Of a stretch of 64,000 nucleotides of DNA, positions 32,555 through 42,865 are shown one piece after another. Position 1 is the first letter of the stretch; the number at the start of each line of letters is the position of its first letter. The stretch lies in the NCBI GenBank assembly GCA_018266215.1, contig JAFEAV010000031.1:1-64000 (forward strand), read 5' to 3'. Origin of the DNA: Cyanobacteria bacterium SZAS LIN-3. Its GTDB lineage: Bacteria; Cyanobacteriota; Vampirovibrionia; Obscuribacterales; Obscuribacteraceae. The translations under genes and the position numbers were made by a program. The notes beneath the pieces were generated by a model. That model did not search any database and had not been told where the DNA came from. It saw nothing but the letters and a program-made list of their open reading frames with translations.

Positions 32555-33226
32555 TCAGGTTTTAAATTTGTAGCCGACACCGTAGACGTTTTTTATTGTC
32601 GACTCTTTGTCGTCGCCGTCGATTTTTTCGCGCAGGCGTTTGATGAATGTCTTGAGCGTATCGGCGGAGCGCTCGGAGGAGCCCGGCCAGACCCGATCTA
32701 AGATGGCATCGGCACTGAATACGGTGTCCTCATTTTTCATCAAAAATTCCATCAGGGCAAATTCGGTGGGCGAAAGTTTGATCAACTTCCCCTCACGAAA
32801 AAATTCATGCTCCTTTTGCTTCAGCTCAAAAGGACCGGCTCGCAAAGACGTCTGAGCGACAATCGGATGGCGCCTGAGCAGGGCCCGTACCCGCAAAGAC
32901 AACTCCTTCAAATCAAAGGGCTTGGGCAAATAATCATCGGCACCGGAGTCAAATCCGACCTCCTTATCGCTGACCGTGCCCCGGTCGGTGAGAAATAGAA
33001 TCGGAGCGACGCCGCCCCTGCCGCGGTACTGGCGGCAGATCTGCGGCCCTTCCATCCCGGGCAATTGCCAGTCCAGCAAAACGACATCGTACTCATATGC
33101 CATGAGCATATCCAGAGCCATAGCGCCGTCGCGCTCCCAATCGACAAAGTACTTGTCGCGTTGCAACCACTCCACCACGGTCTCGCCGAGGGCGACATCA
33201 TCTTCAGCCAGCAGTATCTTTGTCAT
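32555..33226 (-). CDS. OmpR-family response regulator, divergent from the histidine-kinase pair
   Basis: 223 aa, ATG 33226. Receiver domain with EDD (9-10), phospho-acceptor D52 (VVLLDWQLPG), T80 and K102 (LPKPFD), all intact. The winged-helix output (about 128-220) ends KNVYGVGYKF. It starts 91 bp from the oppositely oriented split kinase genes and probably shares a control region with them. It is the most likely phosphate acceptor for that pair. Target genes unknown. Confidence 0.92.
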   Translation of the reverse strand: MTKILLAEDDVALGETVVEWLQRDKYFVDWERDGAMALDMLMAYEYDVVLLDWQLPGMEGPQICRQYRGRGGVAPILFLTDRGTVSDKEVGFDSGADDYLPKPFDLKELSLRVRALLRRHPIVAQTSLRAGPFELKQKEHEFFREGKLIKLSPTEFALMEFLMKNEDTVFSADAILDRVWPGSSERSADTLKTFIKRLREKIDGDDKESTIKNVYGVGYKFKT

Positions 33227-33317: not shown

Positions 33318-35528
33318 ATGATTCTCAGGCCAGGCATCGCCAGAAAAGGACTTGTCATAATCGTCCTGATCCTGGTCTGTGAGCTGTCCTTCGTCGGCTT
33401 GATTGCCGCCGAGCTGGTGAAAACGAGAGCCCGTCTGCGGCAAGAACAGCACAATCTGGCGGTGATAGAGACAAGCAGCCGCATCGCCAACGCCAGCCAG
33501 AGACTGGCCACCTATCTGAGCATGAGTGCCTCCGAACTGGAGCAATCGACCGGCATCGCCATTGATGAATCCGGCCTGCGCCGCAGCATGGCCCAGGACT
33601 TTGAAGACCTGGCCATACTGGCCCGGGATGATGCCGAAGCCGGGGCACTCCTGGCCGAACAGCGCAAATTTTTGCGGGCCATGGACGATGTCTACCGCAA
33701 GGATATGGCCTACTCCGATAACAGTGCGGCCCTCAAACGCGCCGGTCTGACGCCCGCGGTCATGACCTTTCAAAAAGACCTGCTGGAAAAATACAATCAA
33801 CTGGCAATCAGCTACAGAAGCAGCAGAGCAAGCAGCTTGAGCGGCAGCGAGACGGCAGGCGACCTGGGCAAATTGAAGTCGATTGTGCTGATCGCCGCCT
33901 TATTAAACTTTGCCGGAGCGCTGATATTTGGCTTTCTCTTCATCAGCAACGTCGTCAGGCGCATTCAAAAACTGGCCAGCAATATCGACAGACAAGTCGT
34001 CAGTGTCGAAGGAGAAGCAGATGAGCTGGGAGAAATCGAGCGCTCATTCAAACAAATGCTGAGCGACATTGCCGAAGCCGGCGCCCGCGAAGAGCTTCTA
34101 ATAAACGGTGCCTTTGATGTGATTTGCACCCTTAACAGCAAAGGTCGCATCGAAACAATCAATGACGCCTCGGCACTGCAATGGGGCCACCCCCGAGAAA
34201 GCCTTGTCGGCAGCAATATCAGCCAGCTTCTGGAGAGCGAGAGCGCCGATACGTTCCTCAGGAGCCTGCAAAATTACGCCGCCGACGCCAGGTCAAAGAA
34301 TGCTGATGGCGACAGTGTAATGACCATCGACACGCGTATCAAGCATAGCTCCGGCCGCTTGATCGACACACACTGGACCGGCTACTTCGCACCCCAGGAA
34401 CAGTCGATCATTTGTTTTGTCGAAAATATCAGCCAGGCAAAGGAGAGGGAAAACCAGCTCAGGCAGTCGCAGGAACAGGTCAGCGCCTTGTTGAAAAATC
34501 TGCCGCTGGGCATACTCGTAGTCGATCGCGAAGACAGGGTCAGATCTTTCAATAAGAAAATTGCCGCCCTGGCCGACCCGCAACAACTGGCGAAAGGGCC
34601 GGGCAACATTGCTATCGAGCAAATTATCGAAAACCATAGCCTGGAGCGCGGCAGCATCCTGGCTCAGGCCGAAGGCCGTCCGGCAATGCGTGCCCTTATC
34701 CGGGGCGCGGGCGGTGAGCGTATCGCCGCCGAGATAACGGTGCAATATCTTGAGCGCAAGCACGACAATCAACTGGCCGACCGCATAGTGATAGCCGAAG
34801 ACGTACGAGAAAGAGTGCGGCTGGAAAATCTCAAACGTGACTTTGTAGAGCTCCTGCGAGAAAAACTCGGCTCGCCCCTGGCCGCGGTACGCCGCGATAT
34901 GGCGGAGCTGCTCATTTCGCACAAAGATGCTGTGGCGACAAACGAGACAAGAATCAAACGAATCGTCAGCAATGCCGACAGATTGCTACAGCTAATAGAT
35001 AGTCTGATCAATGTTGAGACCTTGCGTCCGGGCAAAATAATCGGTGAGCTGAAGCGCACGGATCTGCGCGATGTACTCGACTCTGCCGTCGCCGCCCTGG
35101 GAGAATACGCGCAGGCACAGGGCATCAGCATTGAATTGAGCGGCACAAGAGAAAGTTGCTGGGTAATGGCCGACAGAGAAAGACTGATTCAAGTCGTCAT
35201 CAACTTACTCTCCAACGCCATAAAATTTTCGCCCTCGCGCGGTACGGTCAAACTGACCGCCGCCAGGAGAGAGGATCAAGATTTTGTAGAAGTGACCATT
35301 TCAGACTGCGGCCGGGGCGTGCCCGAAGACAAGCGCCAGGCCATATTTGAACCCTACCAGCAGGCCAGCGCCCAGGACCAGCATAAGGGCACGGGTCTGG
35401 GACTGGCTATCTGCAAAACTATCATCGAGGGCCACGGCGGCTCTATCGGCGTGGCAGGCAACGACGGGCCGGGCAGTCGTTTCTGGTTTCGCCTGCCGGC
35501 TCAGGGGGGCGCCGTACCGAAAGAATGA
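33318..35528 (+). CDS. Histidine kinase-like membrane protein with intact ATPase but no phospho-acceptor His
   Basis: 736 aa. Plan: TM1 (about 10-30), extracytoplasmic helical domain, TM2 (about 193-215), HAMP-like region, two PAS domains (about 265-375 and 385-495), HisKA-like (about 500-565), HATPase (about 600-728). The H-box reads KRDFVELLREKLGSPLAAV: Glu515 stands where His is expected. The ATP-binding boxes are complete: N629 and N633 (NLLSNAIKF), D663 in DCGRG, FEPYQQ, and G691-T-G-L-G695 (GTGLGLAI). It should bind ATP but cannot autophosphorylate on His. Its stop overlaps the next gene by 4 bp. Best read as the catalytic half of a two-protein kinase. Confidence 0.93.
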   Translation: MILRPGIARKGLVIIVLILVCELSFVGLIAAELVKTRARLRQEQHNLAVIETSSRIANASQRLATYLSMSASELEQSTGIAIDESGLRRSMAQDFEDLAILARDDAEAGALLAEQRKFLRAMDDVYRKDMAYSDNSAALKRAGLTPAVMTFQKDLLEKYNQLAISYRSSRASSLSGSETAGDLGKLKSIVLIAALLNFAGALIFGFLFISNVVRRIQKLASNIDRQVVSVEGEADELGEIERSFKQMLSDIAEAGAREELLINGAFDVICTLNSKGRIETINDASALQWGHPRESLVGSNISQLLESESADTFLRSLQNYAADARSKNADGDSVMTIDTRIKHSSGRLIDTHWTGYFAPQEQSIICFVENISQAKERENQLRQSQEQVSALLKNLPLGILVVDREDRVRSFNKKIAALADPQQLAKGPGNIAIEQIIENHSLERGSILAQAEGRPAMRALIRGAGGERIAAEITVQYLERKHDNQLADRIVIAEDVRERVRLENLKRDFVELLREKLGSPLAAVRRDMAELLISHKDAVATNETRIKRIVSNADRLLQLIDSLINVETLRPGKIIGELKRTDLRDVLDSAVAALGEYAQAQGISIELSGTRESCWVMADRERLIQVVINLLSNAIKFSPSRGTVKLTAARREDQDFVEVTISDCGRGVPEDKRQAIFEPYQQASAQDQHKGTGLGLAICKTIIEGHGGSIGVAGNDGPGSRFWFRLPAQGGAVPKE

Positions 35529-37675
35529 AAAATCCGGCCAGCCCACTGACCATCAAGGCAATGCTTCTGCTCCTGTTAGTACTGGCGCTGGAGGGCGGCT
35601 ATCTGCTCATGCTCACGAATCTGCTCGATCAAACCCAGCAGCAGCTTGCCAGAACGACCCAGGCGCGCCGGGCGGTAGCGGCTCTGGCAGGCTTTTCCTC
35701 GGTCATGCAATCGAGCACAACCGCCATTGTCGATCAGCTGCATGCCGTCGACCCACTTGCTCGTTACACCGAGATTTTCTCCCGCCTGCCCGGTGCATTC
35801 GCCGCAGTCAAACAGGCCCTGACTGAAACAGGCGAAGCCGATCAGGACCTCGCCGCCCTGGAAAAAAACGTAGAGCAGTGCCTGAAGCAGGCTCGTCAGC
35901 TGATTACAACCTATCAACGAGAGGAAAGCTACGTCTACCGCGCGCATGCCGCCGGATTGTTCAAATCATCCCTGGCCATAACGGATAGAGTTGAAAGGCT
36001 GAACGATAAATATAAAGCGATTGAAGAGAGCAATGACGCTTCCCTGACTAAAGCATCCGGCACCCTGCTCTATGCCGCGCTGATAGCAGGTTTCATCGTC
36101 AACGCCCTGGTGGCACTGCTGCTCTACATGTTTTTCATTCGCGGCATGCTGGCAAGATTGTCGGTAGTTTCAAAAAACATGAAAAACTACGCCGGCAACA
36201 AACCTCTCCTGCCGCCGCCGGGCGGCAACGATGAAATATCCGCACTCGACCAAGCCTTTCGCAAACTGGTCGGCAATCTGGAGGCAGGCAAAACAAAGGA
36301 AGCAGTCATTTTGGAGAACAGCTCGGCTCTGATCTGCTCCATAAACAGGGAAGGTTCAATCCAAACGATTCCTGATAAAAGCAGCGCGGTGCTGGGCTAT
36401 ACCCCGGGGGATTTGATCGGCCGGCGCTTCCTCTCCTTATTTAATGACACTACCACCGGTGACACCTACAGGGCTCTCAAAGAAGCGGAAAAGAAGCCCA
36501 CTCGCTTTCAAAATCAGGTCGAGCTACCGGACGGGCGTCGACTCGATTTGTCCTGGTCAGCCAGGGCCGGGGACGACAGCACCATTGTGCTGGTAGCTCA
36601 TGACGTCAGCGAACGCAAAAGAATGGAGAATTTAATAGCGCAGAGCGAGGCCGGGCTGCGTCGATTAATAGACAATTTGCCGATGGCGGTGGTCAGCACA
36701 GACGGCAGTGGGCGGATAGAATCGGCCAACAGAGCGGCATCAGGTCTCAGCCAGTACGAGGCAGCAGACATGGTCGGTCGCAGCCTGGCGGATTTATTCG
36801 TCAATTCAGGGCCCGAAGAAACACACCATGAAAAATTTGCGCAACTGCTAAAAGCAGCTTCCAGCAGAACAGTGAACGTAGGCCTGTGCCGCGCCGACAA
36901 GAGCGTGCTGCCGATAGAGCTCGATATAACCAATTTCACCCTGCACTCAGGCGAAAAATATCTGGCCTGTTTCAGGGACGTTTCCTACCGCATGGAAATC
37001 GAGCAGGCAAAGCGAGACTTTATCTCCATGATTACCCACGACCTGCGCTCACCTCTGACGGCGCTCTTCGGTACTTTGACGATGATTGGAGCCGATTGCG
37101 AGCCCTCGGTCGCACCGGTATTTCAAAAATCGGAAACAACAGTAAAAGGACTTATCGCGCTCATAAACGATTTCATGACCCTGGGCAAACTGGAAGCTGG
37201 TCAGGATATCCTGGAAAAATCCAGTCACCGTTGGACAGCGCTTTTAGATAGTGTGTGCAAAAACAATCCCGGCTGCCGGCTGCTCTTCGACCAGTATTCC
37301 GCCGACCCGGAAGTGGCAATAGTCGTCGATAAGGCTCATCTGACAGCCGTAATTACCTACCTGATAGTCCTGCAACGCTACTTCAGCAGCACAAGCGCAG
37401 AGCGCGTTGTGCACGTCGCCGCACAATTGACGGCTGCGGAACAGGGCGGTGAAAAATTGCTGCGCTTGAAAATAGATGCGACAGGGGCCAGACTGCCACA
37501 ACTGGTCAAGGATACTTGCCGGGAAGGTTACGGCCTGGTGACCCTGGGCGAGGACACGGACTACAGCCCGCTGCACCTGGCCCTATGCCGGGCCATCGTC
37601 CAGGCCCACCGGGGCAGCCTGCAGGTCCTGACCACAGACAGCGATGACTGCTTCGTCCTGACGCTCCCGGCCTGA
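35525..37675 (+). CDS. Histidine kinase-like membrane protein with His but degenerate ATPase domain
   Basis: 716 aa, same plan as the preceding protein: two TM helices (about 11-32 and 178-202), HAMP-like, two PAS domains, HisKA (about 495-560), HATPase remnant. The phospho-acceptor H505 is present (MITHDLRSPLTAL). Aligned without gaps to its neighbour, the ATPase has Tyr612 and Leu616 for the two N-box Asn, Ala652 for the G1 Asp, and YSPLH (680-684) for GTGLG. It should not bind ATP. It probably receives phosphate from the upstream protein in a heterodimer and passes it to the divergent regulator. Tandem duplication origin is likely. Confidence 0.92.
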   Translation: MKNPASPLTIKAMLLLLLVLALEGGYLLMLTNLLDQTQQQLARTTQARRAVAALAGFSSVMQSSTTAIVDQLHAVDPLARYTEIFSRLPGAFAAVKQALTETGEADQDLAALEKNVEQCLKQARQLITTYQREESYVYRAHAAGLFKSSLAITDRVERLNDKYKAIEESNDASLTKASGTLLYAALIAGFIVNALVALLLYMFFIRGMLARLSVVSKNMKNYAGNKPLLPPPGGNDEISALDQAFRKLVGNLEAGKTKEAVILENSSALICSINREGSIQTIPDKSSAVLGYTPGDLIGRRFLSLFNDTTTGDTYRALKEAEKKPTRFQNQVELPDGRRLDLSWSARAGDDSTIVLVAHDVSERKRMENLIAQSEAGLRRLIDNLPMAVVSTDGSGRIESANRAASGLSQYEAADMVGRSLADLFVNSGPEETHHEKFAQLLKAASSRTVNVGLCRADKSVLPIELDITNFTLHSGEKYLACFRDVSYRMEIEQAKRDFISMITHDLRSPLTALFGTLTMIGADCEPSVAPVFQKSETTVKGLIALINDFMTLGKLEAGQDILEKSSHRWTALLDSVCKNNPGCRLLFDQYSADPEVAIVVDKAHLTAVITYLIVLQRYFSSTSAERVVHVAAQLTAAEQGGEKLLRLKIDATGARLPQLVKDTCREGYGLVTLGEDTDYSPLHLALCRAIVQAHRGSLQVLTTDSDDCFVLTLPA

Positions 37676-39428: not shown

Positions 39429-42329
39429 TCAGGATTTCGGTTTAGCCGAAACGTTGGCCTTGACCGCAGGCTTAGCGTTTGCAGGCTTAGCAGTTGAGGG
39501 TTTGGCGTTGGACGGCTTAACGGGGGTGACCGCACCGCCCACTGACTTGCCGGAGCTGGCCGTCGGTATACCGCCTCGGGGAACATTCGGGTCACCATCG
39601 GCGATACCGGGGCGGGGCTCGGCGGGCTTGACGCTGATAACCAGATCATTGCCCTGCCACTTGCTTTGCAGTGCCGGAGTCTGCCTGGCGCCATGACGGT
39701 CCATCTGCACTTCTTCGCCGACCTTAGCTTTCATGAAGTCAAACACAGTAGCCAGCTTTGCCTTATTGCCGTCCTTGCGCAGACCTTCCAGCAGATAGTG
39801 GGTGAAGACACCGTTTTTGTAGCGAGCCGACTCCCACGAGGATTGATTGGCGCCGCTTGAGCATATAACCATCTGGCCTGAGCCCTGAGCCACCTGTGTG
39901 GCATCCACGCCCAGATCGCGGAAGAGACCTTTTGCTCCGACGGCAGCTCCACTGTGGCAGGCGTCCATGACCAGTACAACACGCTGTGAGTTGATGCGCT
40001 TTTTGATCAGATCGGCAAACTCCTGCAACTGGATGCCGGTGGCAAAAAGTTTTGTCTTATCGGTGTCATAGGCCACCAAATAATTGATGCTGCCTACGTC
40101 CATGTTTGTCGGACTGCCGTGCGAGGAGAAGAAAATCAGCACCAGATCGTCGGGATTGGCCACTCGGGGCAGCCAGTTATCACCGAGCTGGGACATGATC
40201 TCGGTCCGTGTGGCCTTCTCGTTAGTGAGCAGACGTACATGGTCGGGCGCAAAATTTGCTTCATGTACCAGGTAGTCGGCAAAGTCGGAGGCGTCTTTGG
40301 CGGCGTACTGCAAATTTATTGACTTGTCCTTAAACTGGCTGATGCCGATAACCAGAGCCCATTTGTCCTTTATCGGTCGATTGACGAGAGTGGTATCACG
40401 CGACATCGTCAGACCGGAGCCGGCTTTTACAACCGCAACGCTGGCCTTGATGCCTTTCTTGCCTTCGACATAATCCCACAAACGACCAAAGGCTGCCGTG
40501 CTCAGAGGCAGAGAAGCCAGTTCCAGATTTTCCTGACCCAGCACACGCTCTCTGATCTCATCGGCCTGCTTCTTGAAGGTCTCCGATTCGGCTGTCTGTC
40601 CCTGCTTGCCGGTAACATAGGCCAGACCGTCGAGAATCTTGGCGATAAAGGGGTGATCGCCGCTGAGGGCCTTGACGTCGGTGGAAAGAGCCTTCTGATA
40701 GAGGGTTGCAGCCTCATCATTTTTGCCCATTTGACTGTAGGCTTCGGCCAGATTAGTCTCCACTTCAGCCACGAAAGGCGTATACAATTTATTTCCTTTA
40801 ACATCACTGGGGCAATTGATAATTGCCAGTGCCAGAGCACGTTTCAGCGATGCGCTGCCTTCATCGGCCTTGTTTTCCAGACAGAGATTTTTACCCAGAT
40901 TATTGAGACCGCCGGCAACCGAATCACTGGTCTTACCCACGGTCTTTTCAAAGATAGCGATGGCTGTGGTGAATAGCTGATTGGCAGGCGGATACTGGGC
41001 CGTAAGTTGTTTCAGCAGACCAAGATTGTTGTCGACCTCGGCCACTTCTTTGGAGTCGGCACCGTTGACCTTTTCCCGAAGCTTGAGGGCCCGGTCCAGA
41101 TTTTCCTGGGCCACATCATAACGAGTCATATCCAGATAACAGAGGCCAAGACTGTTGAGAGCGCGCGAGAGACGGGCATCGGCCTCGCCGAATTTTTCCG
41201 CTTCGGCCACGGCCGAGCTGAGGAGTTCCTGCGCTTCGGCAAAGTCTCCCTGAGCAAAAGCACGCTCTCCAACGCTGCAAAAAGTGTCGCAGGTGTCGTC
41301 TTTAGGCAAAGTGGCGATACCGGTCAAACCGGCTTCACTACTGCGTCTTACAGTCAGGTCAACGACGTCAAAAATGGCCGATGTTCTTTCATCGAGGGCC
41401 TGCTTCTGTTTATCGCTGGGGACGAAATTGCCGTTTTTATCGACCGTTCCGCCCAGTTTGGCGATCAAAGTCTTATCCCGCTTAATTTGTTCCGTCAGCT
41501 CTTTAATAATGTCCGATTCCAGGGTGCTCTGGGTGACGGAGTCCTGGGGCTTGCCGGAATTGATCCCGAGCATGCGCCAGATAGCCAGCTGCGTGATCTG
41601 CTCGGCGCGCTTATGGCGCTCACGGCGACTGACAGTGCGCTCGGCCAGAATCTTTATAGACTCCATCTCCTGCTGCACCGCGGCCTCAGCCTGCTCCTTG
41701 TTTTGCGTCGGATTGTCGCTCAGGTATTTTTCAATTCGTCTTTTGACTTCGCTCTGGACTTCTTCATCTACAAGTTTGGCCATCGCCTCTTTAGAGGGCA
41801 TAAGCAAGGTGCCGAAAGCACCGACGGTCTCGAGTTCCTTACCGGCAGCGATGATTGCGGCAATCTGGCTCCAGAGCTGGGCGTTTTTGTAATCACCCAC
41901 TTCAAAATTCAGACCTTCCTGTGCCGCCGGGGGTGGTGGCACAGTCTTGGGCGAGGCACAAACGGTTTTCAGATTGCAAATGGCGGTTTCGCCGGCGGCA
42001 ATGGAGAGCACGATGTCCTGATTAATGAGCATCGTCTGCACCGACAGCGAGTTTGGGTGCAGGACTTCGTTTTGAGGGATTACGACCTTAATGGGTTGGC
42101 CGCTGGTGTTAGTTACCTGCAAGCTCAGTTTGGTAGTGTTGATCCCGTCACCCTGGACCTTGAGTTTGACTTGATTGCTCTTCAGGGCCTGTCGCAATGT
42201 CGTCAGCTGATTGACCGGCACCGGCACATCCTGCGCCAGCACAGGTGCTACGGAGGACAAGACCAGAGGCAGCATAAGCGCTACAGCGCTGAGCTTGCGG
42301 ACGAGAAATTTGGTGATGGTGGTTCTCAT
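39429..42329 (-). CDS. Secreted TPR protein with caspase-like (C14) peptidase domain
   Basis: 966 aa from ATG 42329. The upstream TTG (42350) would add seven residues before the signal peptide. A signal peptide spans about 1-34 (ending VAPVLAQ). A beta-rich N-terminal domain and a helical region are followed by TPRs (about 350-640). The caspase fold follows (about 665-900): ALVIGISQFKD, catalytic H737 in FFSSHGS and C791 in VMDACHSGA. The C-terminus is a Pro/Lys/Ala repeat tail. Both catalytic residues are kept, so proteolysis after Arg/Lys or Asp is plausible. Prokaryotic caspase homologues are known in cyanobacteria. Role unknown. Confidence 0.9.
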   Translation of the reverse strand: MRTTITKFLVRKLSAVALMLPLVLSSVAPVLAQDVPVPVNQLTTLRQALKSNQVKLKVQGDGINTTKLSLQVTNTSGQPIKVVIPQNEVLHPNSLSVQTMLINQDIVLSIAAGETAICNLKTVCASPKTVPPPPAAQEGLNFEVGDYKNAQLWSQIAAIIAAGKELETVGAFGTLLMPSKEAMAKLVDEEVQSEVKRRIEKYLSDNPTQNKEQAEAAVQQEMESIKILAERTVSRRERHKRAEQITQLAIWRMLGINSGKPQDSVTQSTLESDIIKELTEQIKRDKTLIAKLGGTVDKNGNFVPSDKQKQALDERTSAIFDVVDLTVRRSSEAGLTGIATLPKDDTCDTFCSVGERAFAQGDFAEAQELLSSAVAEAEKFGEADARLSRALNSLGLCYLDMTRYDVAQENLDRALKLREKVNGADSKEVAEVDNNLGLLKQLTAQYPPANQLFTTAIAIFEKTVGKTSDSVAGGLNNLGKNLCLENKADEGSASLKRALALAIINCPSDVKGNKLYTPFVAEVETNLAEAYSQMGKNDEAATLYQKALSTDVKALSGDHPFIAKILDGLAYVTGKQGQTAESETFKKQADEIRERVLGQENLELASLPLSTAAFGRLWDYVEGKKGIKASVAVVKAGSGLTMSRDTTLVNRPIKDKWALVIGISQFKDKSINLQYAAKDASDFADYLVHEANFAPDHVRLLTNEKATRTEIMSQLGDNWLPRVANPDDLVLIFFSSHGSPTNMDVGSINYLVAYDTDKTKLFATGIQLQEFADLIKKRINSQRVVLVMDACHSGAAVGAKGLFRDLGVDATQVAQGSGQMVICSSGANQSSWESARYKNGVFTHYLLEGLRKDGNKAKLATVFDFMKAKVGEEVQMDRHGARQTPALQSKWQGNDLVISVKPAEPRPGIADGDPNVPRGGIPTASSGKSVGGAVTPVKPSNAKPSTAKPANAKPAVKANVSAKPKS

Positions 42330-42865
42330 TGACGCTTCAGTCCCGAACAAAGGGTAAAACAGGAATCCATTTACAACTGCCGCTTGCTGTAAATTAGGGC
42401 CCCCCGGAGGACCGGGAGGGGCAAATAAGACAGGATTACATTCTATCTGATGAAGGGGCTAGCTGATGATCGAGCCAATGGGACTTAGCCCCGATAGGTG
42501 CTGATCAGGGTGCGGCGGTGCAAGACCGGAAAATGAAGGCAACCAACATCGGTCTTTTTGAGCGAGCGGCGCAATTTTATTATCGGCACCCACTATTGTT
42601 AACGGTATGAAAAAACCGTGATCAGTGGCTGATCGCAAGGGGTAGAAGTAAAGGGCGCATATATTTTTGTTCCCCGCCCGGCGCATTAATTTTTAACGCA
42701 AACCGAGTCGCGGTCAGAGCTTTCCAAGCGGAGGCAACTTAATCGTAGACTTGATTTTGTACCATAGGTAGAAATGTTGGGTGCAAGGACCGCTTGTCAA
42801 GCAGCCCTTGGGGTCATTGACCCTCGCCGGGTCGGATTGTAAGCTCAGTAAGTGTCTCGAAAATT
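42330..42865. other. Intergenic region of 536 bp with weak inverted repeats
   Basis: Divergent region between the caspase-like gene and the 257-aa gene. I see GGGGCTA / TAGCCCC (42455-42461 and 42486-42492) and GACCG / CGGTC followed by TTTTT (42524-42559), plus A/T-rich stretches. No coding frame is convincing and no known RNA motif is matched. It may hold a structured leader or a small RNA. Confidence 0.4.

Follow-up and report, generated by a model that had tools for sequence, protein, structure and literature searches.

Two overlapping genes encoding membrane sensor kinases lie on the forward strand of the window, the 64,000-nucleotide stretch of contig JAFEAV010000031.1 of Cyanobacteria bacterium SZAS LIN-3 that was analysed here. 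The first, P1 (33318-35528), encodes a protein of 736 residues arranged as TM-sensor-TM-HAMP-PAS-PAS-DHp-CA and the second, P2 (35525-37675), a protein of 716 residues with the same domain order. The stop codon of P1 and the start codon of P2 overlap by four bases (ATGA, 35525-35528), making translational coupling likely. An OmpR-type response regulator, with Pfam matches to Response_reg and Trans_reg_C, is encoded on the reverse strand at 32555-33226, divergent from P1. Further along the window, on the reverse strand at 39429-42350, is a gene for a 973-residue protein that, judged by eye, has TPR-like repeats and a caspase-like segment (WALVIGISQF...VLVMDACHSGAA). Scans for promoters and terminators were uninformative.

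In P1 the position of the phospho-accepting histidine is occupied by Glu515 (codon GAA, 34860-34862), while the ATP-binding (CA) domain (35172-35504) has complete N, D/G1 and G2 boxes, with Asn629, Asn633, Asp663 and Gly691, Gly693 and Gly695 all present. In P2 the situation is reversed. His505 (codon CAC, 37037-37039), the predicted phospho-acceptor, is retained within the DHp (HisKA) domain (37007-37201), but the ATP site contains Tyr612, Leu616, Ala652 and the segment YSPLH (680-684). The Pfam matches are in independent agreement with this. P1 has a strong HATPase_c match of 101.5 bits, PAS matches, a weak HAMP match and a HisKA match of only 11.6 bits, below the cut-off of 26.9, whereas P2 has a HisKA match of 42.6 bits, two PAS matches and no HATPase_c match even at E<=1. 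The observation made in the initial annotation, that the two proteins have complementary and opposite catalytic losses, is therefore confirmed, with every residue named there found at the position given. Its statement that the proteins align without gaps through the ATPase is, on the other hand, not right; they are 22% identical with 74 gaps over 638 columns, and only the H-box region is ungapped.

The genome, at 6.8 Mb, contains about 90 HisKA kinases, many sharing one TM-sensor-HAMP layout, a large lineage-specific expansion. Of 90 HisKA domains in the assembly only two lack a HATPase_c downstream, P2 and one that is cut off by the end of a contig, so that P2 is the only resolved case flagged by the domain models. 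On another contig of the same genome (C158; locus L213, 1378-2766, reverse strand) a kinase-like PAS protein of 462 residues has Asn in place of the phospho-accepting histidine and Thr in place of the first N-box Asn, and no complementary partner was seen next to it.

Searching 50 genomes of the same family with each protein gave 12 further tandem P1-P2 pairs in 7 other genomes (numbered here with the prefix G): G004, G005, G006, G007, G008, G015, four in G013, two of them on its contig C3 and one each on C4 and C6, and two in G026, one of which is split by contig ends. The gene order is always P1 then P2, and in every pair on an unbroken contig the genes overlap by 4-14 bases. Whether the two losses always occur together in relatives had been set in advance as the test of the split-kinase reading, which would have been refuted by pairs with one intact copy or by degenerate residues varying at random. 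Neither was seen; the losses occur together in all 13 tandem pairs, over about 30% protein identity. In all 13 P1s the position of the histidine is Glu, Arg, Thr, Gln or Ser, while both N-box Asn residues, the DxGxG and the GxGxG are complete, and no other conserved histidine appears in the P1 DHp. In all 13 P2s the motif HDLRSPL is kept and the N, D and G boxes are broken in differing ways. By contrast all 22 full-length relatives of canonical layout keep both the histidine and the ATP boxes. Against 59 diverse kinase cores from public genomes, the histidine is invariant in the set that holds P2 and the N, D and G boxes are invariant in the set that holds P1.

In a tree built from the sensor, HAMP and PAS region only, with no catalytic columns, all P1s form one clade and all P2s another (both 100/100), with the canonical kinases outside. 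The two subtrees mirror each other, with a distance correlation of 0.96 (0 of 20,000 permutations as high) and 9 of 10 splits shared. As adjacent genes share a genealogy this shows inheritance as a unit, including through duplications within G013, rather than contact. Conservation follows function. The ATPase domain has a mean identity of 54% among P1s and 27% among P2s, with P1 higher in 78 of 78 comparisons, and the DHp 44% and 51%, with P2 higher in 71 of 78, while the sensor and first PAS regions are alike. In the closest orthologue pair dN/dS is 0.10 for P1 and 0.11 for P2, and both genes are under purifying selection. The P1 CA domain is at 0.02 and the degenerate ATPase of P2 (37307-37672) at 0.12, so the latter is a maintained domain. 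AlphaFold models of the two DHp-CA cores, built from the window sequence aligned with the 59 public kinases, are predicted to be folded (mean pLDDT 89.6 for P2 and 85.5 for P1), although as the alignments consist of canonical kinases the models may lean towards that fold. Both match solved kinases, with GacS, RetS and DivL among the structural neighbours of P2.

The pair has a narrow and patchy distribution. A profile of the P2s scores 762-952 bits on pair members and at most 540 bits on anything else, and finds them only in this family, with none at the score level of true members in 289 genomes drawn from the rest of the class or 386 drawn from the phylum. A scan of named genomes was of little use for finding pairs, since its patterns fall in the ATPase and its best Obscuribacterales hits were canonical kinases. 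Within the family 8 of 50 genomes have the pair, and it is absent from the one other genome of the genus.

Following HATPase_c domains without a HisKA in the window's own genome led to three more cases of the same logic in other architectures. Contig C21 (locus L205, 1478-4467, reverse strand) has a tandem pair of shorter kinases without PAS domains and in reverse order, the first keeping the histidine with a broken ATPase and the second having Ala in place of the histidine with intact boxes. Three relatives in G006, G008 and G009 have the same tandem arrangement with Asp or Glu in place of the histidine, but their second protein has Asn for the D-box Asp, so its ATPase may be weak; in a fourth, in G007, the histidine half is at a contig end and its partner lies off the contig. 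Contigs C171 (19659-22652; locus L206, 1660-4653) and C186 (41426-44467; locus L207, 1427-4471) encode single proteins of 997 and 1014 residues, respectively, with two complete sensor-kinase modules. In these, core 1 keeps the histidine but has a damaged ATPase (N1 or N2 lost, and in C186 the G2 box too) and core 2 has Gln or Glu in place of the histidine with intact boxes. The same split is carried in G008, G042 and, in two copies, G045, while in G033 and G034 core 1 is damaged but core 2 is still complete, which looks like an intermediate. One shared origin for all the cores that lack the histidine was rejected. The P1s and the fused core 2 do not form one clade (AU p=0.002), supporting at least two origins. 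The second protein of the reversed tandem is not separable from P1 by tree (p=0.29), and a third origin rests on gene order and domain make-up alone.

The natural candidate for the output of the pair is the divergent OmpR-type regulator, whose closest homologues include regulators next to the pair in G006 and G026, where they are divergent, and in G013, on the same strand. It is not a strict genetic partner, however, being adjacent in only 4 of the 13 pairs. Close relatives of it also occur away from the pairs: in G014 the second-closest homologue is beside a single kinase that keeps the histidine and the ATP boxes, and another lies about 10 kb from one pair in G013.

Taken together, these results give strong support to the interpretation put forward in the initial annotation, that P1 and P2 are an obligate heterodimer in which P1 phosphorylates P2 in trans, and the two proteins very probably work only as a mixed pair. 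The sequences themselves establish the complementary and conserved loss of the phospho-acceptor in P1 and of the ATP site in P2, the co-inheritance of the overlapping genes and selection on both. The rest of the mechanism is inferred; complex formation, ATP binding and phosphotransfer were not assayed and the P1:P2 heterodimer was not modelled. In this view the proteins would pair through their similar sensor, HAMP, PAS and DHp parts, and the CA domain of P1 would bind ATP and phosphorylate His505 of P2 across the dimer, necessarily in trans. Phosphorylated P2 would then pass the phosphate to a response regulator, most simply that at 32555-33226, with the P2 CA and P1 DHp kept as structural or regulatory parts. 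Such a kinase would be asymmetric, with one active site per dimer and two different sensor inputs, so that its output could depend on both signals and on heterodimer formation. That the same split is found within single chains, where the halves cannot be encoded apart, counts in favour of this.

Of the alternatives, the one that survives best, although it is unlikely, is that P1 and P2 are independent pseudo-kinases that each pair with another, intact kinase, as RetS does with GacS or DivL with CckA, and only happen to be neighbours. Pseudo-kinases acting on intact kinases are known, RetS and DivL are among the structural neighbours of P2, and the other HisKA kinases of the genome could provide partners, which cannot be excluded. 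However, the losses are complementary in every pair, with the tandem partner P1 itself incomplete in all 13, the genes overlap and keep their order, P1 and P2 branch in step even through the duplications that gave G013 its four diverged pairs, a natural test of partner specificity, and P1 keeps a complete ATP site that it would not need as a mere scaffold. Chance adjacency is likewise rejected by conservation of the pair. It also seems unlikely that the complex signals without phosphorylation, by shape change, with P1 as an ATP/ADP sensor and P2 as a phosphatase or sink for a regulator. DivL is a precedent for a kinase core repurposed as an input sensor (PMC4211667), but the histidine and the acidic residue after it are invariant in P2 and all catalytic boxes are invariant in P1, the pattern expected for retained phosphotransfer. 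Moreover, the residue four positions after the histidine is an invariant Ser in all 13 P2s, not the Thr or Asn of the HE/DxxN/T phosphatase motif cited by Amin et al (2013; PMC3591291); if the absence of this motif holds in the test tube the pair is kinase-only, and the bistability that they derive for bifunctional split kinases would not follow. Decay of one or both duplicates towards pseudogenes, which the wide divergence of the P2 CA domain might suggest, is contradicted by the full-length open frames (one P2 is cut only by a contig end), the dN/dS of about 0.1 and the single old origin of each gene.

A broader reading, about as likely as not, is that this family repeatedly evolves obligately asymmetric sensor kinases, with full-length kinases becoming complementary half-kinases in at least two and perhaps three lineages: the tandem P1-P2 PAS pairs, the reversed-order tandem pairs without PAS and the single polypeptides with a histidine-only core followed by an ATPase-only core. 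They would form a class of receptors with one active site and two sensors in which a signal is sent only when both inputs agree. Sensor kinases are usually treated as symmetric homodimers, and mutants are needed to work out whether they act in cis or in trans. Here each subunit is a natural catalytic knockout that complements the other, so the reaction can only be in trans, which makes asymmetric signalling, two-input integration and partner specificity directly testable and gives ready parts for orthogonal two-input circuits. The fused double-core proteins, some with only one of the two losses, may show the steps by which such receptors evolve.

Split kinases are already known, and the pair has the two sequence features of a split histidine kinase as described by Amin et al (2013), one protein with a catalytic ATP-binding domain but no phospho-acceptor and a partner with the phospho-acceptor but no working catalytic domain. 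No report was found, in a search limited to open-licence papers and a few queries, of two full-length PAS-type membrane kinases with reciprocal, conserved losses or of single-chain double kinases of this kind. The initial annotation gave the CheA3/CheA4 pair of Rhodobacter as a chemotaxis-type precedent. In this split chemotaxis kinase of Rhodobacter sphaeroides too kinase and phospho-acceptor are on two proteins, neither of which autophosphorylates alone while the mixture does, but whole domains are missing, the CheA domain P1 (HPt) from CheA4 and the CheA domains P3 and P4 from CheA3 (PMC3591291). In the pair described here both partners are full-length membrane HisKA-type PAS kinases whose sites have decayed by substitution, with a class I HisKA/HATPase_c architecture and no HPt or CheW domain. 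Hik36/Hik43 of Synechocystis is also a split CheA (PMC7656254). The further claim, that no precedent was known in a membrane PAS-type pair, needs qualifying in view of FasB/FasC of group A Streptococcus, two adjacent membrane sensor kinases with evidence of heterodimers, in which the FasC kinase domain is dispensable and FasC is proposed to be a pseudokinase phosphorylated on H246 (PMC12675982). These are six-TM sensors without PAS domains, whereas P1 and P2 have, as read from the sequence, two hydrophobic N-terminal stretches flanking a sensor, and FasB still has candidate phospho-accepting histidines (H241/H284), so that losses on both sides are not established. The RetS/GacS heterodimer of Pseudomonas (PDB 7n0e; mentioned in PMC12675982) is likewise a pairing of two different sensor kinases, but GacS is intact and is inhibited by RetS, while here neither partner is complete. 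P2 would be counted among the 3.66% of HisKA proteins in SMART that lack a recognised HATPase (Amin et al, 2013), although it keeps a degenerate CA domain, has its kinase partner next door and lacks the phosphatase motif. Rv0600c/Rv0601c/TcrA of Mycobacterium tuberculosis, on which the literature search found no paper, is a three-protein two-component system with the ATPase part and the phospho-acceptor part on two proteins, these being truncated and domain-poor rather than two full receptors. TodS of Pseudomonas putida, like the fused relatives seen here, has two histidine-kinase modules in one chain, but its modules are both functional and are linked by a receiver domain, whereas those of the fused proteins are complementary half-dead cores.
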